Part shown: piece after piece, positions 10,382 to 24,279 of the stretch | Position numbering within the stretch: the stretch's first letter is position 1 | Layout: every line of letters starts with the position of its first letter | Source: Nocardioides sp. | GTDB lineage: Bacteria > Actinomycetota > Actinomycetes > Propionibacteriales > Nocardioidaceae | Assembly (NCBI GenBank): GCA_025965275.1 | Contig: JAOPXG010000257.1 | Location: forward strand, 1-38,271 | Direction of reading: 5' to 3' | Length of the DNA: 38,271 nucleotides | Position numbers and translations under genes: made by a program | Notes under the pieces: model-generated | The model's database searches: none | Told to the model about the DNA's origin: nothing | What the model saw: the letters and a program-made list of their open reading frames with translations, nothing else

Positions 10382-10445
10382 GCCGCTCGCGGACCTGAGC
10401 GGGCGCCCGACCCGGCCAGCTGTACCGCGTCGGGTCGGTACTGGT

Positions 10446-10470
10446 GTTTCTCCGAGGCCGCGATGGGTAC
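10446..10470 (+). promoter_or_regulatory. SigB/SigF-type promoter, leaderless
   Basis: GTTT at 10446-10449, a 15-base spacer and GGGTAC at 10465-10470 match the known general-stress consensus (GTTT, 14-17 bases, GGGTAY). Transcription would start around 10477-10480, exactly at the in-frame ATG 10480. This rules out an upstream GTG at 10444 as the start codon if the promoter is real. Confidence 0.5.
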
Positions 10471-10479
10471 GAAATGCAG

Positions 10480-11481
10480 ATGCAGCCGATTCGCGTCGGG
10501 CTCGTGGCTGATCCGGCTGCGCCGACCGAGCTCGCACGTCGGATGGCGGACCTGAGCCCGCCGAACAGCGGCGGGGCGTGGGACATCACCGTGGTGAGCG
10601 AGCCGTTCACCACTGGATCCGAGGACGTCGAGATCGCGATGGGTCGGCTGCAAGACCATGCCCGTCGACAAGACTGGCACCTGGTCGTCGGCCTGACCGA
10701 GCTTCCCCTCCACGACCACGAGGGCCGCCACGTGCTGGTCGAGACCGATCCGGAGCGTCGGACCGCGGTGCTCTCCCTGCCTGCCCTGGGCGGACTACGG
10801 ATGCACGCCCGCTCCCGTCGTGCGGTGCGCTCGCTGCTCAGCACGATGATGGAGCCGAGCAGAGCAGATGATGAGCACCGCGTAGTTCTCCCTCGCCGGC
10901 GGGGCCGGTGGCGCCTGCTCCAGGGCATGGTGCTCGCCAATCGTCCGTGGCTGTTGGTGCCCGGCCTGAAGTCGGCGCTCGTGGCGGCGCTGGCGACCGG
11001 AGCGGTGGCGACGATCAACTCGACGGTCTGGCTGCTCGCGGGCTCGCTGTCGTGGTGGCGCCTCGTGGTCGCGACGATCGCCTCGGTCGCCCTGGTCGCA
11101 GCCTGGCTCATGATCGACGGCGAGCTGTGGGACCGCCCCGACGACGACTCCCCGCAGGCGCGGGAGAGGTCACGTCTCTACAACGCGTCGACGCTGGTGA
11201 CGCTGATGGCTGGCGTGTTCATCTGCTACGTCGCCCTCTACGTGGTGAACCTGGCGTGGGCGTTCTTCGTCCTCGACCCCGATCTGATGGGCAGCTACCT
11301 CCATGCCTCGCTCGGCTACGGCGACATGTTCGTCCTGGCCTGGTTCGTCGCGTCAGCAGCAACCGTCGGAGGTGGTCTCGGTTCGGGCCTGGAGTCGGAC
11401 GAAGCAATTCGTGCGGCCGCTTACTCCAAGCGCGAGGAGGACCGACGTGACCGCCTCGCGCGCCGCAAGCATTCCCAGTAG
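10480..11481 (+). CDS. Four-helix membrane protein of unknown function
   Basis: 333 residues from ATG 10480. The first 110 or so are soluble and begin with a Rossmann-like strand (MQPIRVGLVADPAAPTELA), a later WDITVVSE and WHLVVGLTELPL. The remaining part has four likely membrane segments at about 160-185, 193-215, 238-267 and 279-302, and a charged C-terminal tail with RREEDRRDR-like composition. I do not recognise a named family. A GTTT-N15-GGGTAC promoter directly upstream suggests general-stress control, with transcription starting at or next to this ATG. An ATG two codons earlier (10474) would overlap the promoter. The N-terminal domain may bind a nucleotide or ligand, but this is speculative. 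Confidence 0.65.
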   Translation: MQPIRVGLVADPAAPTELARRMADLSPPNSGGAWDITVVSEPFTTGSEDVEIAMGRLQDHARRQDWHLVVGLTELPLHDHEGRHVLVETDPERRTAVLSLPALGGLRMHARSRRAVRSLLSTMMEPSRADDEHRVVLPRRRGRWRLLQGMVLANRPWLLVPGLKSALVAALATGAVATINSTVWLLAGSLSWWRLVVATIASVALVAAWLMIDGELWDRPDDDSPQARERSRLYNASTLVTLMAGVFICYVALYVVNLAWAFFVLDPDLMGSYLHASLGYGDMFVLAWFVASAATVGGGLGSGLESDEAIRAAAYSKREEDRRDRLARRKHSQ

Positions 11482-11547: not shown

Positions 11548-12417
11548 ATGAATGTCGTCGACATCGGGATCCCGGGCGTGGACCAGATCCCGCCAGGAAC
11601 GCACCTCTGTGCTCTCTACTCCGGCTCGGCGGAGCGGGACGACCTCCTGTTCCCCTTCCTCCGGCAGGGCCTCCAGCACGGGGACACCTGTCTGTGCTAC
11701 ATCGACGGCCTCGAGCCCGGCGCCGTGCGTGCCCGGGCGGTCGGCGAGGCCGGCGTCACGGACCCACCGACGGATCGGTTCGACGTACGCCCGGCGTCGG
11801 AGGTCTACCTGCAGTCCGGAAAGTTCTCGGTCGAGCACATGACCTCGGTGCTCTCGGACAACCTCGACCAGGTTGTCGCGCGCGGCTCCGGACTGCTGCG
11901 GGCCAACGGGGAGATGCCGTGGCCCGGGGTGTTGTCGCAGCCTCGCGGGGCCGATGACTTCTTCGTGTACGAGGCAGCCCTCAACGACGTCGTGGACCAG
12001 AAGCCGGCGATCTTCATGTGCATGTACGACCTGCAGCGCTTCGGGCTCGACATGCTCGTTGCCGTGCTCAAGACCCACCCCGTCGTGCTCCTGGACCGGA
12101 CGGTTCTCGACAACCCGCACTTCCCGACCCGGGCCGAGTACGACGCCGAGGGGGCAGAGCCCACGGAAAGACGTCCCCTGGGCGCTGCATCCGCGGCCAC
12201 GCACGGGCCGGACCCGTGGCCCTCGCTCACCCCGAGCGAGATGCGGATCGCCGGCTTCGTTGCCATGGGTCTGACCAACAAGGACATCGCCCAGCGGCTG
12301 TGCCTGTCGCCGCACACCGTCGATGCACACCTGAAGCACATCTACACGAAGCTCGACATCCACTCCCGAGTCGAGCTGACCGTGCTCGCCATGCAGCACC
12401 GGACACCAATCGTCTGA
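11548..12417 (+). CDS. MEDS-domain LuxR-family transcriptional regulator
   Basis: 289 residues. The N-terminal MEDS (DcmR-type sensory) domain covers about 10-190 and starts with PPGTHLCALYSGSAERDD, the usual conserved His-Cys opening. The C-terminal LuxR helix-turn-helix (about 226-285) has LTPSEMRIAGFVAMGLTNKDIA and LCLSPHTVDAHLKHIYTKLDI. MEDS domains are thought to bind hydrocarbon derivatives or feed signal to partner kinases. AAGGGA precedes the start. It faces the PAS-HisKA gene across a 21-base gap, so the two may form a sensory pair. The DNA target is unknown. Confidence 0.82.
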   Translation: MNVVDIGIPGVDQIPPGTHLCALYSGSAERDDLLFPFLRQGLQHGDTCLCYIDGLEPGAVRARAVGEAGVTDPPTDRFDVRPASEVYLQSGKFSVEHMTSVLSDNLDQVVARGSGLLRANGEMPWPGVLSQPRGADDFFVYEAALNDVVDQKPAIFMCMYDLQRFGLDMLVAVLKTHPVVLLDRTVLDNPHFPTRAEYDAEGAEPTERRPLGAASAATHGPDPWPSLTPSEMRIAGFVAMGLTNKDIAQRLCLSPHTVDAHLKHIYTKLDIHSRVELTVLAMQHRTPIV

Positions 12418-12438: not shown

Positions 12439-13095
12439 TCAGTCGCGTTGGTCCCGGCCGTCGAGAATGGCGGACACCGAGTCGAGCGCACGTCGGAGGC
12501 GGTCGCCGGCCCGCGACATGCAGGCGAGCGACAGTTGCACCTCCTTCGGCAACGCATGGCCGTGGTCCTGGAGGAGCTCGACATGGCCGAGGAGTGCCGT
12601 CAGCGGGGTGCGCAGCTCGTGCTGCAGGGCGTCGAGCCGCTGTCGACGCAACTCCGGAGGCAGTGACACGATGGGCTGCTCGTCGGTCGCGTCAGTGGCC
12701 ACGAGCAGGGCTCCCCGGATCTCTCCGTCGGCGCTGCGAAGCGGGGCCGCGGTGCAGCGCAGCAGCCGGACGGGACCGGCTTTCGGCTTCACCGTGACGT
12801 AGGAGTCCTGGACGCTCTCACCCGCGCAGGCGCGCACCAAGGTGAGTTCGGAGGGGTCGAGGGTCTGGATTCCGGACGCATCGTGGAGATTGAAGTACGC
12901 CGGGACCTGATCGCTGGGGATGGGCTCGAACCGGGTGTCCGCGAGGCACTCGAGGGCGGGACTGACATGGGCGAGCCGGAGGGATTCGTCCATCACTGCC
13001 ATCGGCAGGGCGAGCTCGCCCAGCACCGTGTGGAGCAGGTCCCAACCACTCGAGTCCGCCTGCAGGTCGTCGTCCATCCACCGATGGTCACCCAT
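12439..13095 (-). CDS. PAS and HisKA domain protein lacking an ATPase domain
   Basis: 218 residues from ATG 13095. The PAS-like domain covers about 15-135, with LPMAVMDESLRLAHVSPALECL and a closing GEIRGALLVATDATDE. It is followed by a histidine kinase dimerisation/phosphoacceptor helix with LDALQHELRTPLTALLGHVELL, H159 being the phospho-accepting histidine. The protein ends about 60 residues later, with no N, G1 or G2 boxes. It cannot phosphorylate itself and could be a phosphotransfer or signalling adaptor. An ATG six codons later (13077) is also possible; neither has a strong ribosome site. It is convergent with the MEDS-LuxR gene. Confidence 0.7.
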   Translation of the reverse strand: MGDHRWMDDDLQADSSGWDLLHTVLGELALPMAVMDESLRLAHVSPALECLADTRFEPIPSDQVPAYFNLHDASGIQTLDPSELTLVRACAGESVQDSYVTVKPKAGPVRLLRCTAAPLRSADGEIRGALLVATDATDEQPIVSLPPELRRQRLDALQHELRTPLTALLGHVELLQDHGHALPKEVQLSLACMSRAGDRLRRALDSVSAILDGRDQRD

Positions 13096-13123
13096 GCCGG
13101 ACGGCAGAAGCCGTGTTCGCTCA

Positions 13124-13144
13124 CGAGCCGCGCATCCCGGCTCG
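13124..13144 (-). terminator. Stem-loop after the chaperone-redox operon
   Basis: CGAGCCG, loop CGCATCC, CGGCTCG: a 7-base GC stem 25 bases beyond the AraC stop. It may end the nine-gene operon. No T-run follows. Confidence 0.4.
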
Positions 13145-13145
13145 A

Positions 13146-13159
13146 GATCTGCGCAGATC
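13146..13159. repeat. Perfect 14-base palindrome
   Basis: GATCTGCGCAGATC, perfectly symmetric with no spacer, in the 73-base gap between the AraC gene and the PAS-HisKA gene and next to the stem-loop at 13124-13144. It could be an operator for the PAS gene or part of a terminator. Confidence 0.35.
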
Positions 13160-13168
13160 GGCCAGCCA

Positions 13169-14164
13169 TCAGAGAGCGTTGAGCGTCTCCGACGGGAGTT
13201 CGCCGAAGGCATCGCGGTACGCAGCCGCGAAGCGGCCCAGGTGTGCGATGCCGCACCGAGCCGCGACCTGGGCGACCGTGGTCCGGTCAGGGTCCGCCAC
13301 GCGGAGCAGGTCGCGGGCGCGGTGGAGTCGGACGTCACGCACGTAGGACATCGGCGGCATGCCGACCTCGCGGCGGAACCCCTCCTGCAGGGCTCGCACG
13401 CTGAGGTGCACCTCGGTCGCCAGCCGGACGGTCGACCACGGCTCGTCCGGCCTGTCGTGCACGAGGTCGATCGCACGGCCCACGGACGACCGCGGCGCTG
13501 CGGACGCGGCGGCGCTGAGCACGTCGCTGTAGGTGTGATGGTGTCCGAGCAGCAGACCATCGACCACCAGACCCCGGACATGACGACCCACGCCCGGGTG
13601 GTTGATCAGGCCCGGACCGTCGTCGAGCTCACCGGCCAGCATGCCGAGCACCTCCCGCCACGCGCGGCTCGTCGGCGACGTGAGGTCCATGGCGGGGTTG
13701 AAATCCAGGCGGGTCCGCAGGGACCGGCCCAGCAGTGCCTCGAGCTCGGCCTCCACGTCGTAGCGGGAGATCATCATGCAGAGCTGGGTGCAGTTCTCCG
13801 CCCAGGCGATCTCGGCCTGGCGTCCGGGACCGAACACCGCGGCCGTCCCCGGCGTCGTGACGACCGCCGGGCCCGGCCAGCCGCCCGAGGAGCGTGCCTG
13901 GCCCGACAGCGGCGCGTTCACGTGGAAGTCGCCGGCCTCGGCGGTCGTCAGCACCACCGACCGGCCGTAGGACAGTCGCCCCACGGTCAATCCGCCCAGG
14001 CGAATGCCGGTGATGCGCATGTCGAGCGGCTCGAGCCCGCGCCTGAGATCGAGGCGATTGGGCAGGAACAGCTCGCCGACGACGCTCTCGGCGCGGTCCC
14101 GGTCCTCGGTCTGGACCCTGGTCACCGGCGACCGACGACCGGGTGCGGCGGCGGGCCCGTTCAT
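13169..14164 (-). CDS. AraC-family transcriptional regulator
   Basis: 331 residues. The N-terminal effector/dimerisation part (about 25-190) resembles the AraC-binding-like domain of ActS/FeaR-type regulators (GRLSYGRSVVLTT, DFHVNAPLSG, CTQLCMMISR). The C-terminal double helix-turn-helix (about 225-330) has VRLATEVHLSVRALQEGFRREVGMPP and VAQVAARCGIAHLGRFAAAYRDAFGE, clear AraC signatures. It is the last gene of the dnaK operon, overlapping the flavoprotein gene by four bases, so it is expected to be made with the chaperones. Its inducer and targets are unknown. Confidence 0.87.
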   Translation of the reverse strand: MNGPAAAPGRRSPVTRVQTEDRDRAESVVGELFLPNRLDLRRGLEPLDMRITGIRLGGLTVGRLSYGRSVVLTTAEAGDFHVNAPLSGQARSSGGWPGPAVVTTPGTAAVFGPGRQAEIAWAENCTQLCMMISRYDVEAELEALLGRSLRTRLDFNPAMDLTSPTSRAWREVLGMLAGELDDGPGLINHPGVGRHVRGLVVDGLLLGHHHTYSDVLSAAASAAPRSSVGRAIDLVHDRPDEPWSTVRLATEVHLSVRALQEGFRREVGMPPMSYVRDVRLHRARDLLRVADPDRTTVAQVAARCGIAHLGRFAAAYRDAFGELPSETLNAL

Positions 14165-15819
14165 CGTCGACCTGCGCTCTCGAGGAAGTCATGGACGAGG
14201 CGAACGGCCATGGCGCCCTCGCCGACCGCGGAGGCTACGCGCTTCACCGACCCGCTGCGCACGTCACCCACGGCGAACACCCCCGGCGCGTCCGTCTCGA
14301 GCACGCTGCCACGCCGGCTGGTCACGCCGGTCCGCACGTATCCCTGCTCGTCCAACTCGATCCGGCCCTCGAGCCAGGCGGTGCGAGGCTTCGAACCCAC
14401 CAGCACGAACACGGCCGCGCTCTCGACGACGTGCTCCCGGCCGCTCTCGCGCTCTTTGAGGACAACGGACTCCACGGCCACGTCTCCGTCGAGCCGGCCC
14501 AGCTCGCAGCCCGGCCACACCCGGATCCGAGGGGTTCTCTCGATCCGGTCCGCCAGGTAGCGGGACATGTCGCGATGGAGGTCGTGGTGGCGGATGACGA
14601 GGTGGACCGCGGAGGACCGTCGAGAGAGGAAGAGGGCGGCCTGGCCCGCAGAGTTCCCGCCGCCGATCACCGTGACGGGTTGGCCGCCGCACCACTGTGC
14701 CTCGGCCTCGGTCGCGGCGTAGTAGACGCTGCTGCCCTCGAGACGATCGAGCCCGGGCACGTCCAGCCGCCGGACCTGGACACCGGTCGCCAAGATCACG
14801 GCGTGCGCCGTCACGTCCTCCCCGTCGGTCAGTCCCACGACCTGGTAGCCGTCGACGTCGCGAAGGGTCTGCGCCTCACCGGGGACGGTGAAGGTGGCTC
14901 CGAACTTCCGCGCCTGGACCACGGCTCGGTCCGCGAGCTCGGCGCCGGAGATGCCCGCGGGGAAGCCTAGGTAGTTCTCGATCTGAGACGACGTCGCGGC
15001 CTGCCCGCCGGTCGCCACCGCGTCGAGGACGAGCGACGAGAGCCCCTCGGACGCGCCGTACACCGCTGCCGCGAGGCCGGCCGGGCCGGCGCCGACGATG
15101 ACAAGGTCGTAGGCCTCACGGGCGGGAGCTGAGCGCAAACCGATCAGGGTCGCGAGCTCGGCGTTGCCCGGGTTTCGCAACACGTGCTCACCCTTCCAGA
15201 TCACCACCGGCGTCTGCTCCGGGGAGATACCGAGCCGCCGGAGAAGGCCTTCGGCCTCCGGGTCCTCCTCCAGGTCGAGCCAGCGGTACGGAATCCGGTT
15301 CCGGCTCGCGAAGTCCCGGATCCGGCGGCTGTCCGTGGAGAACCGGGACCCGATGATCCGGAAGCCGGCGCCGATTCCAGCGTGGAGGCTGCGACGCACG
15401 AGGAAGGCCCGCAAGATCAGGTCGCCGAGCCCGGGATCCTCGACGACCGCCTCCTGGAGTCGCTCGACGGGAACCGCGAGCACCTCGACGTCGTCCTCGG
15501 CGATGGCCGTGACGTAGATAGGTTGCCCGGTGAGCAGCGACAGGTCGCCGAGGAACCGTCTGGGACCATGCACCGCCACGAGCTGAGGCTCGCGATCGGT
15601 CTGCTGCCACACTGACACCAGACCGTCCAGGATGACGAAGAAGTCGCAGTCGTGGTCCCCTTCGCGGAAGAGCGCGTCCCCCGGTGGCACCCGTCGCCGA
15701 GTGCCGAACCTGGACAGCATCATCACCTGCTCGTCGCTGAGCCTCGGGTAGGCGCCGGACATGTCCGGCGTCTCAGGTCGTTGCGGCACAGCCGACTCAG
15801 ACGTACTGGTCGTGGGCAT
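14161..15819 (-). CDS. Cyclic nucleotide-binding / thioredoxin-reductase-like flavoprotein
   Basis: 552 residues in three parts. About 25-140 is a cyclic-nucleotide-binding (CRP-like) domain. About 145-225 is a glutaredoxin-fold segment (FRIIGSRFSTDSRRIRDF, TPVVIWKGEHVLRNPG). About 238-550 is a thioredoxin reductase-like two-dinucleotide domain with FAD motif VIVGAGPAGLAAAVYG, NAD(P) motif VIGGGNSAGQAALFLS and GVFAVGDVRSGS. The CxxC of true thioredoxin reductases is replaced by AATE (in YYAATEAEAQWC), and the glutaredoxin-like part has no CxxC, so classical dithiol transfer is unlikely. The start has a strong GGAGGTGG. It overlaps the UBP zinc-finger gene by 23 bases and the AraC gene by four. 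It is probably a nucleotide-gated NAD(P)H oxidoreductase; acceptor unknown. Confidence 0.85.
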   Translation of the reverse strand: MPTTSTSESAVPQRPETPDMSGAYPRLSDEQVMMLSRFGTRRRVPPGDALFREGDHDCDFFVILDGLVSVWQQTDREPQLVAVHGPRRFLGDLSLLTGQPIYVTAIAEDDVEVLAVPVERLQEAVVEDPGLGDLILRAFLVRRSLHAGIGAGFRIIGSRFSTDSRRIRDFASRNRIPYRWLDLEEDPEAEGLLRRLGISPEQTPVVIWKGEHVLRNPGNAELATLIGLRSAPAREAYDLVIVGAGPAGLAAAVYGASEGLSSLVLDAVATGGQAATSSQIENYLGFPAGISGAELADRAVVQARKFGATFTVPGEAQTLRDVDGYQVVGLTDGEDVTAHAVILATGVQVRRLDVPGLDRLEGSSVYYAATEAEAQWCGGQPVTVIGGGNSAGQAALFLSRRSSAVHLVIRHHDLHRDMSRYLADRIERTPRIRVWPGCELGRLDGDVAVESVVLKERESGREHVVESAAVFVLVGSKPRTAWLEGRIELDEQGYVRTGVTSRRGSVLETDAPGVFAVGDVRSGSVKRVASAVGEGAMAVRLVHDFLESAGRR

Positions 15820-16072
15820 AACACCACCTCCAGCTCTCCCCGGGTTCGAGCGACCGCACGATCACGTGCCCGGACGAACCGGCGTGTGCTCGTGCGTGCC
15901 GCATCGGGGACGAGTCGCAGCACCCGACCTTGCCGCAGGTGAGGCACAGACGCAGGTGCACCCACGGAGTGCCCAGCTTGAGGCACTCCTCGCAGCCGTC
16001 GCTGCGGGGCAGCACCGGACGCACCAGGGCGAGGTGGGGGTCGGGACCGGGCCGGCCCGGCGACGTACTCAC
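15797..16072 (-). CDS. UBP-type zinc finger protein
   Basis: 91 residues from GTG 16072, which overlaps the thioredoxin stop (GTGA). The zinc-finger ubiquitin-binding fold is seen in DGCEECLKLGTPWVHLRLCLTCGKVGCCD and HARAHAGSSGHVIVRSL, giving the ordered Cys/His ligands, and it ends with ESWRWCYAHDQYV. In eukaryotes this fold binds ubiquitin C-termini; bacteria lack that ligand here, and its role is unknown. In actinobacteria I recall it being paired with the cyclic-nucleotide/flavin oxidoreductase that follows here, so a redox or protein-binding partner role is likely. Confidence 0.85.
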   Translation of the reverse strand: MSTSPGRPGPDPHLALVRPVLPRSDGCEECLKLGTPWVHLRLCLTCGKVGCCDSSPMRHARAHAGSSGHVIVRSLEPGESWRWCYAHDQYV

Positions 16073-16527
16073 GCCGGCTCCCGCGCGAGCTTGTCTGTCA
16101 GCCACGCCCGCAGCGCGGTCACCGGTGCGGCTCCGGTCTGCCGATCGACGACCTCGCCGTGATCGATCAGGACCAGGGTCGGGATCGCCTGCACCTCGAA
16201 GCGCCGGCTCACCTCAGGAGCCACGTCCGCGTTGACCTTGACCAGCTTCAATCGGCCCGCCAGCTCACCGGCGAGCTGCTCCAGAGCGGGGCTCACCATC
16301 CGGCAGGGCCCGCACCAGGGCGCCCACAGATCGACGAGCACCGGGACGGTCGCCTGGTCAGCGACGGCCTCGAAGTCGACATCGGACGCATCGACGATCC
16401 ACGGCAGCGGCGACTGGCACCGGCCGCATCGAGGCACCCCGCTGGCGACCGGCAAGACCCGGTTCTTGGTCTTGCAGCTCGGGCAGACGACGACCCGGGC
16501 GGGGGCGGGGCCGGTTGTGGCGCTCAT
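16069..16527 (-). CDS. trxC: Thioredoxin with N-terminal zinc ribbon (thioredoxin 2 type)
   Basis: 152 residues. The N-terminal zinc ribbon has two CxxC pairs (CPSC at about 15-18 and CGRC at about 34-37), as in E. coli TrxC. The thioredoxin fold follows with the active site [13 protein letters not shown] (about 68-80) and the cis-proline region AIPTLVLID. It is a cytoplasmic dithiol reductant, and the zinc ribbon in relatives is linked to oxidative stress. It overlaps clpB by four bases and the UBP gene by three. It is expected to be heat- or redox-induced with the operon. The flavoprotein downstream lacks the CxxC needed to reduce it, so its reductase probably lies elsewhere. Confidence 0.9.
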
Positions 16528-19160
16528 GCGACTGCCCTCCCCTCGTCCGGTGCCCTGGTCGGCGTCACCGTGAGTTCGCCGCCGACCAGGTCGACGGTGA
16601 CCGACCCGTCCTCGAGCACGTCGCCGCGCAGGAGTGCCCGGCCGAGCCGGGTCTCCAGCTCGCGGGCGATGAACCGCCGCAGCGGGCGCGCGCCGTACGC
16701 CGGGTCGAAACCCTGGTCCGCGATGAACCGCAGAGCAGGTTCGGTGACCTGCAGGGTGATACGCCGGTCCGCGAGGCGAGCGCGCAGGTCGTCGAGGAGC
16801 AGGTCCGCGATCCGCTCGATCTCGGCAAGGGTCAGCGGCTTGAACAGCACGATGTCATCGACGCGGTTGAGGAACTCCGGGCGGAAGTGGCTGCGCAGCG
16901 AGGCCATGACGAGGCTGCGGGCCTCGTCCTTGATCTCGCCGTCCGCAGTGACACCCTCCAGCAGGTACTCCGACCCGATGTTCGAGGTCATGATCACCAC
17001 GGTGTTCCTGAAGTCGACGGTGCGCCCCTGGGAGTCGGTCAGCCGACCGTCGTCGAGGACCTGCAGCAGCGTGTTGAACACGTCGACGTGCGCCTTCTCG
17101 ATCTCGTCGAGGAGGACCACGGAGTAGGGCTTGCGCCGGACCGCCTCCGTGAGCTGACCGCCCTCCTCGTACCCGACGTAGCCCGGCGGTGCACCGACGA
17201 GCCGACTCACGGTGTGCCGCTCCTGGTACTCACTCATGTCGATACGGATCATGTTGTTCTCGGTGTCGAACAGCGCGGCGGCCAGCGTCTTGGCGAGCTC
17301 GGTCTTCCCGACACCGGTCGGGCCGAGGAAGACGAAGGAGCCGATCGGACGGCGCGGGTCCTTGATGCCGGACCGCGCCCGGACGATCGCATCGGCCACC
17401 AGCTGGACCGCCTCGTCCTGGCCCACCACGCGCTCGTGAAGGACATCGTCGAGGCGGAGCAACTTGTCCCGCTCGCCCTCCTGGAGCCGGCTGACCGGGA
17501 TCCCGGTCCACCGAGCCACGACCGCGGCGATCTCGTCCGCGGTGACGACCTCCCGGAGGAGTCGCCTGCCACCCTGCTTGCCGGCGAGCCTCGCTTCGGC
17601 CGCCTCGAGGCGGCGCACGAGCTCCGGGAGCCGGCCGTGTCGCAGCGACGCGGCCCGGTTCAGGTCGTACTCCCGCTCCGCCTGCTCGCTCTCCTGGCGC
17701 ACCTGCTCCAGCTCCTGGCGCAGGCTCTGCACCTCGCGGAGCGCCGTCCGCTCGGCCTCCCACTGGGCCCGCATGGCGTCAGCCTCGGCGCGCACGTCCG
17801 CGAGCTCACGGCGCAGCTCCTCGAGCCGGGTCTTGCTGGCCGAGTCGTCCTCGGCGGCCAGGGCCGCCTCCTCGATCTCCATCCGGGTCACCCTGCGGGT
17901 GAGCTCGTCGAGCTCGGCCGGCATCGAGTCGATCTCGGTGCGCAGCATCGCGCACGCCTCGTCGACCAGATCGATGGCCTTGTCGGGGAGGTAACGGTCA
18001 GAGATGTAACGGTGGCTCAGGGTCACCGCAGCAACCAGCGCCCCGTCGTGGATCTTGACGCCGTGGAACACCTCGAGCCGTTCGCGGAGTCCGCGCATGA
18101 TCGACAGGGCGTCCTCCTCGCTCGGCTCGTCCACGATCACCGGCTGGAAGCGGCGCTCGAGCGCGGCGTCCTTCTCGATGTGGGAGCGGTACTCGTCGAG
18201 AGTCGTCGCGCCGATCATGTGCAGCTCTCCGCGGGCGAGCATCGGCTTGAGCATGTTGCCCGCATCCATCGCGCCCTCGGCGGCGCCGGCGCCGACCACG
18301 GTGTGCAGCTCGTCGACGAACAGCAAGATCCCGCCGTTTGCGCTCAGCACCTCGTTGAGAACAGCCTTGAAGCGCTCCTCGAACTCGCCGCGGTACTTCG
18401 CGCCTGCGACCAGCGCCCCCATGTCCAAGGCGAAGATCGTCTTGTCACGCAGCCCTTCGGGCACGTCACCGTTGTTGATGCGCTGGGCCAGGCCCTCGAC
18501 GATCGCGGTCTTCCCGACGCCGGGCTCGCCGATCAGCACCGGGTTGTTCTTGGTCTTGCGCGACAGGATCTGGACCGTGCGCCGGATCTCCCCGTCGCGC
18601 CCGATGACCGGCTCCAGCCGCCCGGCGGCGGCATCCGCCACCAGGTCGCGGCCGTACTTGGAGAGGGCCTCGTAGGTGCCCTCCGGTGTGGCCGAGGTGA
18701 CCCGCTGGTGTCCACGGACCTCGGTGAGCGCAGAGAGGAAGCCGTCGCGGGTCACGCCTTCCTGCCGCAGCAGGCGGCCCGCGGCCGACCCGGAGCCCTC
18801 GTTGAGGAGGGCCACCACGAGGTGTTCAACCGAGACGTACTCGTCCTTGAGCCGGCGTGCCTCCTTGTCGGCGTCGTCGAGCAGCCGGGAGAGCCGTTGG
18901 GTGACGTGCACCTGACCCGGCGAAGCGCCCGGCCCGGTGACGCGTGGACGTCGCTCCAGCTCTGCCTCGAGCGCCGTGCGTAGCCGGTCGGGGTCGGCAC
19001 CGGCCCTGCTCAACAGCGGTCCGGCCAGACCCTCGGTCTGATCCAGCAGGGCGAGCAGCAGGTGCTCTCCGTCGACCTCGCTGTGGCCGAAGCGGAGGGC
19101 CTTGGTCTGGGCGTCGTGCAGGGCTTCCTGTGACTTCTGGGTCAGTCGGTTCATGTCCAT
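16524..19160 (-). CDS. clpB: ATP-dependent disaggregase ClpB
   Basis: 878 residues. The N-terminal Clp repeat domain (about 1-145) starts [21 protein letters not shown]-1 has Walker [14 protein letters not shown] and Walker [11 protein letters not shown]. The coiled-coil middle domain (about 400-530) is full of Glu/Arg heptads. AAA-2 has [13 protein letters not shown] and [11 protein letters not shown]. It rescues aggregated proteins together with DnaK. AGGAGG lies upstream of ATG 19160. The first ten bases overlap the CbpM-like gene, and the end overlaps trxC by four. Full length, no missing motif. Confidence 0.93.
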
Positions 19161-19471
19161 CGAGCTTTTCCTCCTGGAAGTGGGCGCCGCGATGACCTCT
19201 CGAGCTCGGAGACCCGGTCGAGCAGGTCGACGATCAGTCCGAGCGACGCGTAGCTGAGGTTCAGCCCCAGGTGCAGTCGCTGGATCCGGGCCATCGCGCG
19301 CACTTGTGCCGGGTCGAACCACAACCGGCCCCGGCCGTCGCGGCTGACCTCGAGCAGCCCCATGGCAACCAGCCGACGAACCAGGTCGGGATGCACCCCC
19401 GTGAGCCGGGCGTAGCTGTCCAGGCTCAGCAGGTAGGGCCGGGCGAGCGCGTAGTGAGTGCGCGTGGTCAT
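19151..19471 (-). CDS. cbpM: CbpM-like chaperone modulator (MerR-type HTH)
   Basis: 106 residues. It matches the actinobacterial CbpM/MerR-HTH family: [44 protein letters not shown], then [32 protein letters not shown]. CbpM of E. coli binds the J-domain of CbpA and inhibits it. In many actinobacterial dnaK operons this slot holds HspR, a true repressor; the present protein lacks the typical HspR N-terminus and fits CbpM better. It overlaps the dnaJ stop (4 bases) and the clpB start (10 bases). A DNA-binding repressor role remains possible. Confidence 0.78.
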
Positions 19472-20406
19472 CGACTGCTCCGGGGGTCGAAGGTGGAGAT
19501 CTTCGCAAGCTTTTGGAAATGCCGGCGCTCCTCGGAGGTCAGCTTCTCGGGCACCATGATCTGGGCCTCGGCGAAGAGGTCGCCGGGCTTGCCTCCGCGG
19601 TGGGGCAGCCCCTGGCCGGCCAGTCGCAGCCGGCGGCCGCTCGACGTACCCGCCGGCACGGTGACCTTGAGCTTGCCCGCCGGGCTCTCGACGTCGACCT
19701 CGGTGCCGAGGGCGGCCTCCCAGGGCGCCAGCGGGAGGGTGAGGTGGAGGTTGCGGCCCTCGAGCCGGTAGCGGCGGTCCGGCGCGATCCGGACGACCAG
19801 GTAGAGGTCGCCCGAGTCGGCACCGCCCGTGCCCTGGCCACCCTGACCGCGGAGCCGGATCCGCTGGCCGTCCACCACCCCCGCCGGGATGTCGACGTCG
19901 ATGGTGCGAGGACCATCGGGGCCGGTGATCGTCAGGCTGCGCTTGGTGCCGTGGAAGGCCTCGTCGACGGTGACCTCCACCTCGGTCTCGTGGTCGGAGC
20001 CGGGGATCGGCCCCCACCCTCGCCGGCCGCGGCCTCGTCCGCCGAAGACCCCGCCCAGGAGTTCTTCGAGGTCGACCTCGTCACCGAAGTCGGTGAAACG
20101 CACCCCGCCACCGCCGCCGGGTCGCGCACCCGCGCCGGCATAGGCACGGGAGCGGCGCTGGGCGTCGGGGTCGGCATCGGGCGACACCCTGCGGAAGTCC
20201 TCCCCGAAGGCGTCGTACCGCTGGCGCTGCTCGGGGTCGGACAGCACGTCGTACGCTTCGGAGACCTCCTTGAACCGTTCCTCGGAGCCCGGGTCCTTGT
20301 TGACGTCGGGGTGGAGCTGGCGAGCCAGCCGGCGGAAGGCCCGCTGGATCTCGGCCTGGTCGGCACCGCGGGGGACGCCGAGGGATTCGTAGAAGTCACG
20401 CGTCAT
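19468..20406 (-). CDS. cbpA: DnaJ-family co-chaperone without zinc finger (CbpA type)
   Basis: 312 residues. J domain at 1-70 with RDFYESLGV and the essential HPD in [14 protein letters not shown] Gly/Arg-rich stretch (about 75-135) leads to two beta-barrel C-terminal substrate domains (about 140-300). There is no CxxCxGxG zinc-finger region, so it is a class B J-protein like CbpA, not classical DnaJ. It stimulates the DnaK ATPase and delivers clients. It overlaps grpE and the CbpM-like gene by four bases each, consistent with a CbpA/CbpM pair built into the dnaK operon. Confidence 0.9.
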
Positions 20407-20906
20407 CGCGCACCCCGGGTGACGACGACCACGGCGGACGGCCGCAGGACCTCGTCGTCCGTCCCGTAACCGGGTCGGACGACCTCGGCCACCGTCCCCG
20501 GCACGAGCTGGTCGTCGGCCACGGTGCCGACGGCCTCGTGGACGGCCGGGTCGAAGGGCCTCCCGAGGTCGTCGCGGCGCGGGAAACCGAGGTCGCCGAT
20601 GGTCGCGCTCGCCTGCTGGAGAACGGCTCGGACCCCCTCGATCACCTGGTCCGACTCGGCGGGCGCGTGCTCGAGGGCCCGTTCGAGGTTGTCGAGGACC
20701 GGCAGCCACGCCGACGCGACCCGGGCTCGCTCCTGCCTTCTGGCCCGCTCGACGTCCGTCGCGGTCCGCTTGCGATGGTTGTCCAGCTCGGCGGCGGTAC
20801 GACGCCAGTTGTCCTCGAGCTCGACCACCCTCTGCGTGGCCGCCTCGAGCGGGTCGGGACCGTCCTCGGCCCCGTCTTCCAGCTGGGGAGTCTGCGGCTC
20901 GGACAT
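20403..20906 (-). CDS. grpE: Nucleotide exchange factor GrpE
   Basis: 167 residues. The long N-terminal helix is followed by VVELEDNWRRTAAELDNHRKRT, and the beta domain has FDPAVHEAVGTV and GTVAEVVRPGYGTDDEVLRPSAVVV, typical GrpE signatures. It exchanges ADP on DnaK. It starts eight bases after dnaK and overlaps dnaJ by four (ATGA). Near the usual length for actinobacterial GrpE, slightly short at the acidic N-terminus. Confidence 0.92.
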   Translation of the reverse strand: MSEPQTPQLEDGAEDGPDPLEAATQRVVELEDNWRRTAAELDNHRKRTATDVERARRQERARVASAWLPVLDNLERALEHAPAESDQVIEGVRAVLQQASATIGDLGFPRRDDLGRPFDPAVHEAVGTVADDQLVPGTVAEVVRPGYGTDDEVLRPSAVVVVTRGAR

Positions 20907-20914
20907 GGCGGCGG

Positions 20915-22804
20915 TCAGTGCGTCGTGAACTCGGCGTCGATGACGTCGTCGTCCCCGGCGTCTGCGCCCGAGCTCGGCGAGGACCCGTCATCCCCCGGCG
21001 GCGGACCAGAGGAGCCCGACGCGGCCAGGGCCTGGGCCATCTGGTGAAGCTCGCCCGCCAGGGCACGGAGACGGTCGATCGAGGCCTCCTGCTCGACGGC
21101 AGTGCGTGCGTCGCCGACCAGCATCTCCGCGCGGGCCCGATCGTGCTCGGCCACCGCGTCTCCGGCCTCGTCCAGCCGGCGCTGCACCTGGTAGGCGACC
21201 GCGTCGAGCTCGTTGCGCGCATCGACCAGCTCCCGGAGCGCCGCATCGTCACTGCGGTGGGCCTCGGCGTCCGCGACCATCTTCTCGACGTCGGCCTCGG
21301 TGAGGTTGGACGTCTCGCTGATGGTGACCTGCTGCTCGGCTCCGGTGTCCTTGTCCCGCGCCGAGACGTTGAGGATTCCGTTGGCGTCGATGTCGAAGGT
21401 GACCTCGATCTGCGGCACGCCGCGCGGCGCAGGCCGGATGTTCTCCAGCCGGAACCTGGCCAGGACCCGGTTGTCGCTGGCGCGCTCGCGCTCGCCCTGG
21501 AGGACCACCACGTCGACGGCGGACTGGTTGTCCTCCGCGGTGCTGAAGACCTCGGTACGGCGGGCCGGAATCGTGGTGTTGCGCTCGATGACCTTGGTCA
21601 TCACGCCACCGAGGGTCTCGAGGCCGAGCGAAAGCGGCGTGACGTCGAGCAGGAGGACGTCCTTGATCTCTCCCTTGAGGATCGCGGACTGCACGGCCGC
21701 TCCGACGGCCACGACCTCGTCGGGGTTGACGGTCATGTTCGGGTCCTTGCCGCCGGTCAGTCGGCGTACCAGCTCCTGGACGGCCGGGATCCGGGTCGAG
21801 CCGCCGACCAGGATCACTTCGTCGAGGTCGTCGGTGCTGACCTTCCCGTCCGCCATCGCCTGCTTGACGGGGCCGAGGCATCGCTCCACGAGGTCCCGGG
21901 TCAGCTCGTCGAAGGTCGATCGCATGAGATTGACGTTGAGGTGCTTGGGCCCCGACGCGTCTGCGGTCACGAACGGCAGGTTCACCGACGTCTGGGTGAC
22001 TGCCGAGAGCTCCACCTTGGCCTTCTCGGCGGCCTCGAACAGCCGTTGCAGGGCCTGGGGGTCGTCGCGCAGGTCGATGCCGTTCGACTTCTTGAACTCC
22101 TCGGCGAGGTGGTCCACGATTCGCCGGTCGAAGTCGTCGCCGCCGAGGTGGGTGTCACCCGCGGTGGACAGCACCTCGACGACGCCCTCGCCAACGGTGA
22201 GGATGCTGACGTCGAAGGTACCGCCGCCCAGGTCGAAGACCAGCACGGTCTCGTTCTCGAGCTTGTCCATCCCGTACGCCAGGGCCGCGGCGGTGGGTTC
22301 GTTGATGATGCGGAGAACCTCGAGCCCCGCGATCCGGCCGGCGTCCTTCGTGGCTTGGCGCTGCGCGTCGTTGAAGTGGGCGGGCACCGTGATGACCGCC
22401 TCCGTGACCCGCTCGCCGAGGAACTTGCCCGCGTCGCTCACGAGCTTGCGCAGCACCTGCGCGGAGATCTCCTCCGGCGCGTAGAGCTTGCCGTTGATGT
22501 CGAAGCGCGCGGCGCCGTCGGGACCGGGGACGACGTCGAAGGAGACCGCGTTGGTCTCGCTCGCGACCTCGTCGTACGCCCGTCCGATGAAGCGCTTGGC
22601 GGAGTAGATCGTCCCTTTCGGGTTCAAGATGGCCTGTCGTCGGGCCATCTGGCCCACGAGCCGTTCACCCGACTCGAGGAACGCGACCACAGACGGGGTC
22701 GTCCGGCTTCCCTCCGCGTTCGGAATCACCTGCGGCTGACCGCCTTCCATCGCCGCGATCACCGAGTTCGTCGTCCCGAGATCGATACCGACAGCTCTAC
22801 CCAT
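20915..22804 (-). CDS. dnaK: Chaperone DnaK (Hsp70)
   Basis: 629 residues. Phosphate-1 loop [12 protein letters not shown], phosphate-2 loop [16 protein letters not shown], adenosine motif [14 protein letters not shown], linker [16 protein letters not shown], then the substrate-binding domain and a Gly/Ser/Asp-rich tail ending VIDAEFTTH. First gene of the operon. AAGGAG stands six bases before ATG 22804. An extended inverted repeat (22829-22862) lies 12 bases upstream of that ribosome site and probably controls the operon. Given the CbpA-type J-protein, this may be a second, stress-specific DnaK rather than the housekeeping copy, but that cannot be decided from this window. Confidence 0.95.
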
Positions 22805-22828
22805 GACCCGCTCCTTCGCTCGATGCCT

Positions 22829-22862
22829 GCCGAACTTCCATGCTGTTGAGCATGAGTTCGGC
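22829..22862 (-). promoter_or_regulatory. Long inverted repeat in the dnaK leader
   Basis: Plus-strand reading: outer arms GCCGAACT (22829-22836) and AGTTCGGC (22855-22862); inner arms CATGCT (22839-22844) and AGCATG (22849-22854); loop GTTG; one unpaired TC on the left. That makes 14 base pairs with a 2-base bulge. It ends 12 bases before the AAGGAG of dnaK. It could be a repressor operator or, if transcribed, a leader RNA hairpin. It does not match CIRCE or the HspR HAIR sequence. Confidence 0.6.
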
Positions 22863-22868
22863 CGACAT

Positions 22869-22880
22869 CCCGTAGACGGG
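22869..22880. repeat. Short inverted repeat upstream of the dnaK palindrome
   Basis: CCCGT, AG, ACGGG: perfect 5-base arms, six bases beyond the larger repeat. It may be a second half of the same control region. Confidence 0.3.
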
Positions 22881-23240
22881 TTAGTTCCGAGGCGGGCCCG
22901 GGTCGCCGACAGGTCCGATCACCGTCCACAGACGGCGCCGGGCCCCAGGACGATGCCGAGCTTGCTGCCACGACGCCAGACCAGATTCGCACCGGCTGGC
23001 GCGTTGAGAGCGCGTGACGGATCGATCCCGATCACGATCGAAGACCGACGAACGTGCAGCGGTCAGAGCCCATGTGGCTCGCGGGCCCTTCAGTCAGCGA
23101 CGAGGTGGTCGTGGCTGGAGTTCCACGCCCTGCAGAGCGGCCGGGATCTCAGGTTTCGAGCATCGATCAGGGCTGGCCCCGGAGCCCCACTGAGCAGCGT
23201 TGCACCTCGTCCGAGCCGATCGTCTCGCCTGCCGCCACCA

Positions 23241-23267
23241 GTGCGTGCTCGGCAAGGACTCACGCAC
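23241..23267 (-). terminator. Stem-loop at the end of the catabolic operon
   Basis: GTGCGTG and CACGCAC, perfect 7-base arms with a 13-base loop; one arm covers the stop codon of the aldolase gene (23260-23262). Likely operon end, without a T-run. Confidence 0.35.
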
Positions 23268-24279
23268 GGAGGTCGGCGGTGAGGTCGAGCGCTATGTCGA
23301 CGATCATGTCCTCCTGCCCGCCGACGAGCCCCCGGCGTCCGACCTCGAGCAGGATGGTGCGCACATCCACCCCGTACCGCGCCGACGCCGACTCGGCGTG
23401 ACGGAGGAACGATGAGTAGACGCCGGCGTATCCCAGAGTCAGGGTCTCTCGGTCGACCCGAACCGGCCGGTCCTGGAGTGGGCGAACCAGGTCATCGGCG
23501 GCGTCCTGGAGGGCGAACAGGTCACACCCGTGCCTCCAGCCCTGGAGTTCGGCGACCGCGATGAACGGTTCGATCGGACAGTTCCCGGCTCCCGCGCCGT
23601 GGCCTGCGAGGGAGGCGTCCACCCGGGTCACGCCTTCCTCGACGGCGACGACGGAGTTCGCCACGGACAACGAGAGGTTCTCATGTGCATGGATGCCGAT
23701 CTCCGTGGCGGCGTCGAGGCAGTCGCGATACGCCCGTACCCTTTCGCGGACACCGTCCATGGTCAGGCGTCCGCCGGAATCGGTGACGTAGACACAGTGC
23801 GCGCCGTACGACTCCATCAGCCTGGCCTGGGCGGCCAACTCGGCCGCCGGCGCCAGGTGGCTCATCATCAGGAAGCCCGAGACGTCCATCCCGAGCTCGC
23901 GCGCGGTCCCGATGTGCTGCGCCGACACGTCCGCCTCGGTGCAGTGCGTCGCCACCCGCACCGACCGGACCCCCAGCGCGGCGGCCCGCTTCAGATCGGC
24001 GACGGTGCCGATCCCCGGCAGCAGCAGGGTGGTCAGCCGCGCCCGTTCGATGTGGGCGGCCGCCACCTCGATCCACTCCCAGTCGGTGTTGCTCCCGGGC
24101 CCGTAGTTGAGGGAGCCGCCGGCAAGCCCGTCACCGTGCGCGACCTCGATGCCGTCGACGCCGGCGGCGTCGAGGGCGAGCACGATCCGACCGACGTCCT
24201 CCGGCGAGATGCGGTGCCGGACGGCGTGCATGCCGTCGCGGAGCGTGACGTCCTGGATGAACAGCGTGGGCGTGGTCAT
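23260..24279 (-). CDS. mhpE: 4-hydroxy-2-oxovalerate aldolase
   Basis: 339 residues, DmpG/BphI/MhpE family of the HMGL-like TIM-barrel aldolases. It splits 4-hydroxy-2-oxovalerate into pyruvate and acetaldehyde, and channels the acetaldehyde to the dehydrogenase. Motifs: [15 protein letters not shown] (metal Asp and catalytic Arg/His), [20 protein letters not shown], and metal histidines in [12 protein letters not shown]. The C-terminal communication domain (about 280-339) contacts the partner enzyme. It overlaps the acetaldehyde dehydrogenase gene by four bases, as expected for a complex. Last gene of the operon. Confidence 0.93.

Follow-up and report, generated by a model that had tools for sequence, protein, structure and literature searches.

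Operons controlled by HspR possess the layout dnaK-grpE-dnaJ-MerR-clpB. LuxR-type activators bind near -42 from the transcription start, with the lux box at -42.5, and the sites of NarL show a 7-2-7 geometry. Second copies of dnaK are common in Actinobacteria, and the portion of PMC11019930 that deals with them reports 19.4% of 3,247 genomes. The MEDS domain is described, in the relevant passages of PMC11507031, PMC8727900 and PMC8784404, as a sensor of simple hydrocarbon derivatives. In the open-licence PMC literature no paper was found on MEDS control of dnaK, or on the switch of the second dnaK described below.

The stretch of DNA analysed here (the window, 38,271 nucleotides of a Nocardioides sp. 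contig) harbours a second dnaK, dnaK2, in an operon with the gene order dnaK, grpE, dnaJ, MerR_2, clpB. The features of this operon are the following.

22811-22816, minus strand: AAGGAG ribosome site of dnaK2, from the sequence
20915-22804, minus strand: dnaK2, second DnaK paralogue, ATG at 22804 (Pfam HSP70)
20403-20906, minus strand: grpE (Pfam GrpE)
19468-20430, minus strand: dnaJ, start approximate (Pfam DnaJ, DnaJ_C)
19151-19483, minus strand: MerR_2 protein, CbpM/HspR-like, below both NCBIfam cutoffs
16524-19508, minus strand: clpB-like open reading frame, named by eye from its translation, true start probably internal

Thioredoxin-like and thioredoxin-reductase-like genes (14161-16527 of the window, by eye) follow clpB on the same strand, and may share the operon. 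Two other contigs of the genome, C361 and C296, carry pieces of another dnaK, of the housekeeping type. Orthologues of dnaK2 with 76-97% identity were present in 14 other genomes of the 215 genus genomes (E <= 1e-250), and in 33 others of a class-level sample of 394 (E <= 1e-290). The MerR_2 gene was found in all twelve searched genomes with a long dnaK2 (that of G229 with a broken frame).

The operon shares the layout of actinobacterial dnaK operons under HspR/HAIR control, but differs from them in its regulator and in its leader. The MerR_2 protein scored 25.5 bits against the HspR model, for which the cutoff is 105, in agreement with the original prediction that the operon contains no HspR. 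The same prediction, that the leader carries neither CIRCE nor HAIR, was borne out as well. Within 22802-23104, the best fit to CIRCE (TTAGCACTC-N9-GAGTGCTAA) had 9 mismatches of 18, and the best fit to HAIR (CTTGAGT-N7-ACTCAAG) had 6 of 14. The likeness to the HrcA/CIRCE system lies in the presence of an inverted repeat before a chaperone gene, and not in its sequence. In contrast, a HAIR-like site with zero to three mismatches of 14 was present in all 21 examined leaders of dnaK1 (20 loci, and L003 of the own genome). With HAIR-like sites at dnaK1 and not at dnaK2, the two chaperone sets appear to be under different control.

Two inverted repeats lie between the ribosome site of dnaK2 and the upstream genes. 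The elements of this region, and the regulator that we propose to act on it, are listed here.

22829-22862, minus strand: 34-base inverted repeat, overlapping spacer, -10-like hexamer and predicted start of the dnaK2 promoter
22866-22880 (read 22880-22866), minus strand: palindrome plus ATG, CCCGTCTACGGGATG, candidate MEDS-LuxR operator, from near-invariance in 26 promoters, a genome-wide scan and regulator co-occurrence
22869-22880, minus strand: palindrome CCCGT-N2-ACGGG, core of the 15-mer
22840-22845, minus strand: -10-like hexamer CAGCAT, 20 nt after the operator motif
about 22833, within a few bases, minus strand: predicted transcription start (+1), placed from the -10-like hexamer
11548-12417, plus strand: MEDS-LuxR (GerE) one-component regulator, proposed trans-acting factor (Pfam MEDS 3.6e-32, GerE 4.1e-16)

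The functional element before dnaK2 is probably the short palindrome module, as a regulated promoter, and not the 34-base repeat. The 15-mer CCCGTTCACGGGATG is near-invariant in 26 promoters, 19 of dnaK2 and seven of genes with an ABM domain, while the spacer drifts. The 19 aligned dnaK2 leaders, comprising 16 loci of the genus set (two taken from the named twin records L127 and L129) and three loci known from the genome-wide scan only (L132, L136 and L138), likewise showed a near-invariant motif and a variable spacer. Outside the 26 promoters stand the second module of L053, the module of L135, which precedes an FMN reductase gene, and that of L141.

The second block of the module, the hexamer, follows the motif after 20 or 21 nt in 25 of the 26 promoters, and its second position is A and its sixth T in all of them; these counts carry a mild bias from placing the hexamer by best match in an 11-nt range in all promoters, and a further one from four promoters (L132, L133, L136 and L138) known only via a search demanding AGCAT. 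The hexamer of L052, AAGGGT at the common spacing, was placed by eye. Relative to the predicted start, the palindrome is centred at -41.5 or -42.5 in 25 promoters (about -41.5 in the window), and at -38.5 in L050, where the spacing is 3-4 nt shorter. The -10-like hexamer of the window lacks the usual first T, and a sigma-70 promoter scan of 22301-23200 gave no match.

Two conserved blocks at a near-fixed distance could also represent -35 and -10 elements recognised by an alternative sigma factor, the palindromy being incidental. We consider this highly improbable, as the blocks are 20-21 nt apart (once 17), a long distance for a sigma site, and the CCCGT arm would be left unexplained. Moreover, L057 carries module copies in opposite orientation between divergent genes, and the module co-occurs with the MEDS-LuxR regulator. 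Two dnaK2 loci showed peculiarities of the module. One has an additional palindrome module, CATGTTCACGGGATGC, at L053:3557-3572, some 105 bp upstream of that of dnaK2; it is weaker and possibly has a second block. In Nocardioides baculatus (L127/L085) an intact palindrome and -10-like block stand between fragments of dnaK2 and MEDS-LuxR, in a decaying locus.

The regulated promoter, as we read the module, is found before second dnaK genes of Nocardioides, Dietzia and Mycetocola, and most named records that possess it belong to Nocardioides. ABM-domain genes, assigned by PF03992 with 23.3 bits against a cutoff of 23.1, are the second target class (seven of the 26 promoters). In some loci the ABM gene is followed by an FMN reductase gene, and L057 has divergent ABM and dnaK2 promoters. 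That two genes unrelated in coding sequence have 15-mer, spacing and hexamer in common argues for control at the DNA level.

A genome-wide scan of 84,980 species with the exact two-part pattern CCCGTNYACGGGATGYN{17,22}AGCAT returned 19 stretches, of which 15 adjoin dnaK2, ABM, FMN reductase or MEDS-LuxR genes. Ten of these 15 were loci already in the genus set, and the five new ones belong to Dietzia cinnamea, Mycetocola miduiensis (two places), a Marmoricola MAG and N. jiangsuensis. The matches L131, L144 and L145 look like chance. The gammaproteobacterium Alloalcanivorax xenomutans carries a copy of the two-block module (L141:4006-4046) with the extra matches TCGGTGACC and AGCATGGC; its 8-kb locus contained no dnaK2, MEDS, ABM or FMN-reductase match.

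With the central bases left free, the 15-mer occurred at 18 places in 13 dnaK2-bearing genomes, 15 of them beside dnaK2 or ABM and three elsewhere; in the own genome it was found at dnaK2 only. A 16-mer query with one mismatch allowed gave 33 sites in the genus, a count that leaves out the sites of the window and of G160, which differ from the query at three and two positions. Twenty of these sites lie beside dnaK2 or ABM, in regulator-bearing genomes or in G070. The remaining 13, all in genomes without a MEDS-LuxR match, were treated as chance copies. A loose test for the second block was passed by 22 of the 33 sites and failed by 11, with a wrong hexamer read at L094 and L097 missed (locus offset 6 bases); the promoter counts rest on the 26-promoter alignment and the gene context. 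Three sites (L087, L088 and L099) passed this test though not beside dnaK2 or ABM, and in L088 AGCAT stands near the right distance.

In 36 dnaK2 leaders of other genera (29 class-level loci and seven of 12 order-level loci) the 15-mer was never closer than 3 mismatches in 300 nt, and whole-locus scans of all 12 order-level loci detected no 16-mer within 2 mismatches. The absence of MEDS at these 36 motif-less leaders refers to the fetched flanks. In each of four order-level genomes (G042, G047, G055 and G057) dnaK2 is present twice, the leaders of the two copies being dissimilar, and the fetched loci contained no 16-mer palindrome within 2 mismatches. A plasmid search with the leader and the start of dnaK returned eight records, with matches at the dnaK end that covered 13-21% of the query; the one record inspected was unannotated.

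The distribution of the MEDS-LuxR regulator follows that of dnaK2. Among the 215 genus genomes, the regulator (E <= 1e-60) was detected in 16 and dnaK2 (E <= 1e-250) in 15, with both in 14. The regulator is therefore present in 14 of 15 genomes with dnaK2, versus 2 of 200 without it (Fisher p 5e-19, the genomes being related and thus not independent). In G004, a genome 85% complete, dnaK2 is cut at a contig end and no regulator was found. In G229 the frames of dnaK2 and of the regulator are both broken, which places dnaK2 below the cutoff. Two features of a LuxR-type operator are found here, a conserved inverted repeat and a GerE-domain regulator in the genome, the latter seen in the copy of the window and in the co-occurrence.

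In 15 of the 26 promoters the module comes immediately after the regulator gene, in the same orientation. Two have an ABM gene between regulator and module, one (L050) has a divergent regulator, and in eight, including the window, the regulator is not adjacent or is outside the fetched flank. On the single contig of G066 the regulator (1,190 kb) lies far from both dnaK2 (335 kb) and ABM (2,211 kb), and both targets carry the motif. The regulator of the window belongs to a diverged subgroup (53.6% identity to the query), lies about 10 kb from dnaK2 and has no motif copy in its flanks (L121). The sequence HTVDAHLKH in the HTH is identical in all 20 aligned regulators, which comprise 17 of the 18 proteins from the genus search (the broken copy of G229 was excluded) and three from the genome-wide scan. 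Three LuxR proteins encoded beside motif-less dnaK2 genes carry HTVESHLRH, HTVAFHLRH and HTINSHLRS; this difference in the HTH helix is weak evidence, as these three proteins are more distant homologues anyway. Regulator and operator appear to have moved together across orders.

Two frames near the regulator of the window were also observed. The gene preceding it (10444-11481) has homologues, identified by eye, that also stand beside the ABM-regulator cluster in other species. The frame opposite the regulator gene (12439-13581) resembles, by eye, a PAS and HisKA histidine-kinase-like piece without an ATPase domain.

The palindrome might instead be the site of the operon's own MerR_2 protein, in an HspR-like autoregulatory loop. 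This CbpM/HspR-like protein is encoded in the dnaK2 operon, is weakly similar to HspR and accompanies every long dnaK2 that was searched. Nonetheless, G147 (98% complete) possesses the regulator and an ABM gene with the motif, and harbours neither MerR_2 nor dnaK2. In G070 the motif is present and dnaK2 and the regulator occur as fragments in the fetched stretch, again without MerR_2. The motif is also missing from the dnaK2 leaders of other genera. Autoregulation by MerR_2 is therefore very unlikely.

The 34-base repeat itself had been correctly described. It occupies 22829-22862 with 14 base pairs, a single 2-base bulge and a 4-base loop, ends 12 bases before AAGGAG, and has a second short repeat, the palindrome, close by at 22869-22880. 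On the dnaK (minus) strand it reads GCCGAACTCATGCTCAACAGCATGGAAGTTCGGC, with its right arm at 22836-22829 and a predicted folding energy of -18.7 kcal/mol. In the whole window, 34-mers with at least 14 predicted pairs fall into 15 clusters on the minus strand and 14 on the plus strand, and six dinucleotide shuffles gave 7, 10, 18, 19, 9 and 10 clusters per strand. Hairpins of this kind show no excess over chance in the GC-rich window; by the same counts, about 0.15 clusters are expected per 450-nt stretch of one strand. Folding of the 121-nt leader gave a z of -1.82, with 12 of 200 shuffles equal or better. The possibility that the repeat is an intrinsic terminator of the upstream catabolic operon was ruled out by the lack of a T-run after the hairpin, and a terminator scan of 22301-23200 gave no match.

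The original prediction considered control by an RNA hairpin in the dnaK leader, and named an alignment of orthologous leaders and compensatory changes among them as the check. As a thermometer or stability element, the repeat would have its good fold and its place 12 bases before the ribosome site in its favour. Over all 19 leaders, 52.3% of stem cells pair, versus 32-42% in slid controls, and covariation is 0.242 versus at most 0.112 in these controls; none of 500 shuffles was as high on three measures of pair counting. However, the 34-base repeat is common only to the window and one close relative (L129/L049; DnaK identity 97-98%) among the 19 aligned leaders, and L057 has a partial, different hairpin. 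Without these three sequences (window, L129 and L057), 45.4% of cells pair, a level reached by 77 of 1000 shuffles and lying within the controls, which gave 31-45.5% when slid by up to 3 columns and as much as 47.6% when slid by up to 6. The favourable signal thus fell to control level on removal of the window's own group of three sequences.

With the same three sequences dropped, the inner helix pairs in 27%. The outer helix pairs in 56%, matched by 382 of 1000 shuffles, with slides of up to 3 columns giving 14-52%. After near-identical rows were collapsed to nine, 313 of 1000 shuffles reached the observed pairing. The best remnant of pairing, the middle three pairs, was reached by 43 of 1000. 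RNAalifold on the 19 leaders recovered the short palindrome and a 4-bp helix only, with no compensated pair.

Other evidence also stands against an RNA element. A search of 22600-23300 found no Rfam family at curated score, the sub-threshold match being an L31 leader elsewhere in the dnaK leader (22894-22947, E 0.64, 19.2 bits versus 35). The ribosome site is not covered by the stem, and the conserved bases of the right arm are accounted for by the -10-like hexamer, which is common to ABM promoters. In addition, the predicted start lies in the right arm of the repeat, so that only some five bases at the end of the repeat would be transcribed, and the hairpin would fall outside the mRNA. A conserved RNA element is not supported by these comparisons. 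The thermometer reading was rejected on the lack of conservation and the position of the predicted start, and a hairpin in the leader, of whichever kind, has in our estimate a very small probability.

Alternatively, the arms of the repeat (GCCGAACT-N18-AGTTCGGC) could overlie the core promoter as another DNA operator, specific to the lineage, where a repressor would act together with the MEDS-LuxR site. Both arms are kept in the window and in L049/L129, and in L057 and L058 different sequences around the -10 likewise fold into hairpins (-17.3 and -19.9 kcal/mol). Between the window and L049, one of the 34 bases of the repeat differs, in the loop, versus 52 of 363 fourfold sites (binomial p 0.035). 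This low divergence, which could be counted for an RNA hairpin as well, favours some constraint, as would be expected over a promoter. However, the outer arms (GCCGAACT-N10-24-AGTTCGGC) were found at a single place in the own genome (G000, 87% complete) and at a single place in G160, and genome searches detected none in G077 and G148, despite the same CTAA flank at their dnaK2 promoters. An asymmetric 2-base bulge fits poorly with binding by a dimer, and similar repeats are no commoner than in shuffles. A second operator in the repeat is thus unlikely. Of the earlier suggestion that another repressor controls dnaK2, the part that called for another regulator stands, as MEDS-LuxR is indicated; the 34-base repeat as the control element does not, since conservation of its pairing does not extend beyond its small group. 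The repeat is most likely a local sequence over the spacer, the -10 and the start of the promoter, particular to two close relatives.

The most likely explanation of the locus is a second chaperone operon controlled by MEDS-LuxR, with 22866-22880 as the operator together with the core promoter. CCCGT-N2-ACGGG(ATG) would be the DNA site of a MEDS-LuxR protein, here most likely the product of 11548-12417. From about -41.5 relative to the start set by CAGCAT, a LuxR-type activator would touch the RNA polymerase of a promoter whose -35 is weak, activating rather than repressing it. The 34-base repeat would remain mostly untranscribed. By family, the MEDS domain may sense a small hydrocarbon derivative as its signal. 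Its targets, to be switched on by the regulator, would be dnaK-grpE-dnaJ-merR2-clpB and, in relatives, an ABM monooxygenase as well.

Similar to LuxR/NarL-type (GerE) sites, the operator candidate is an inverted repeat that has a 2-bp centre, lies at about -42 relative to the predicted start of a weak promoter and is accompanied by a GerE-domain regulator. It differs from them in sequence, in the MEDS sensor and in having a chaperone operon as target. DcmR and EtnR2, MEDS regulators of hydrocarbon catabolism, share the sensory domain family; here MEDS is combined with a LuxR-type HTH and associated with dnaK and ABM, and the motif was seen at no catabolic operon.

On a wider scale, we regard it as about an even chance that these loci form a horizontally moving regulon, in which MEDS-LuxR would switch on a second Hsp70-ClpB set and an ABM monooxygenase, sometimes with a flavin reductase. 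Such a regulon would provide chemical-triggered, heat-independent protein repair beside the HspR-controlled housekeeping dnaK. A named candidate regulator, an operator and a small list of targets make the control of the second dnaK testable in environmental Nocardioides. If the MEDS domain senses a hydrocarbon derivative, exposure to solvents or pollutants would be tied directly to the supply of chaperones.
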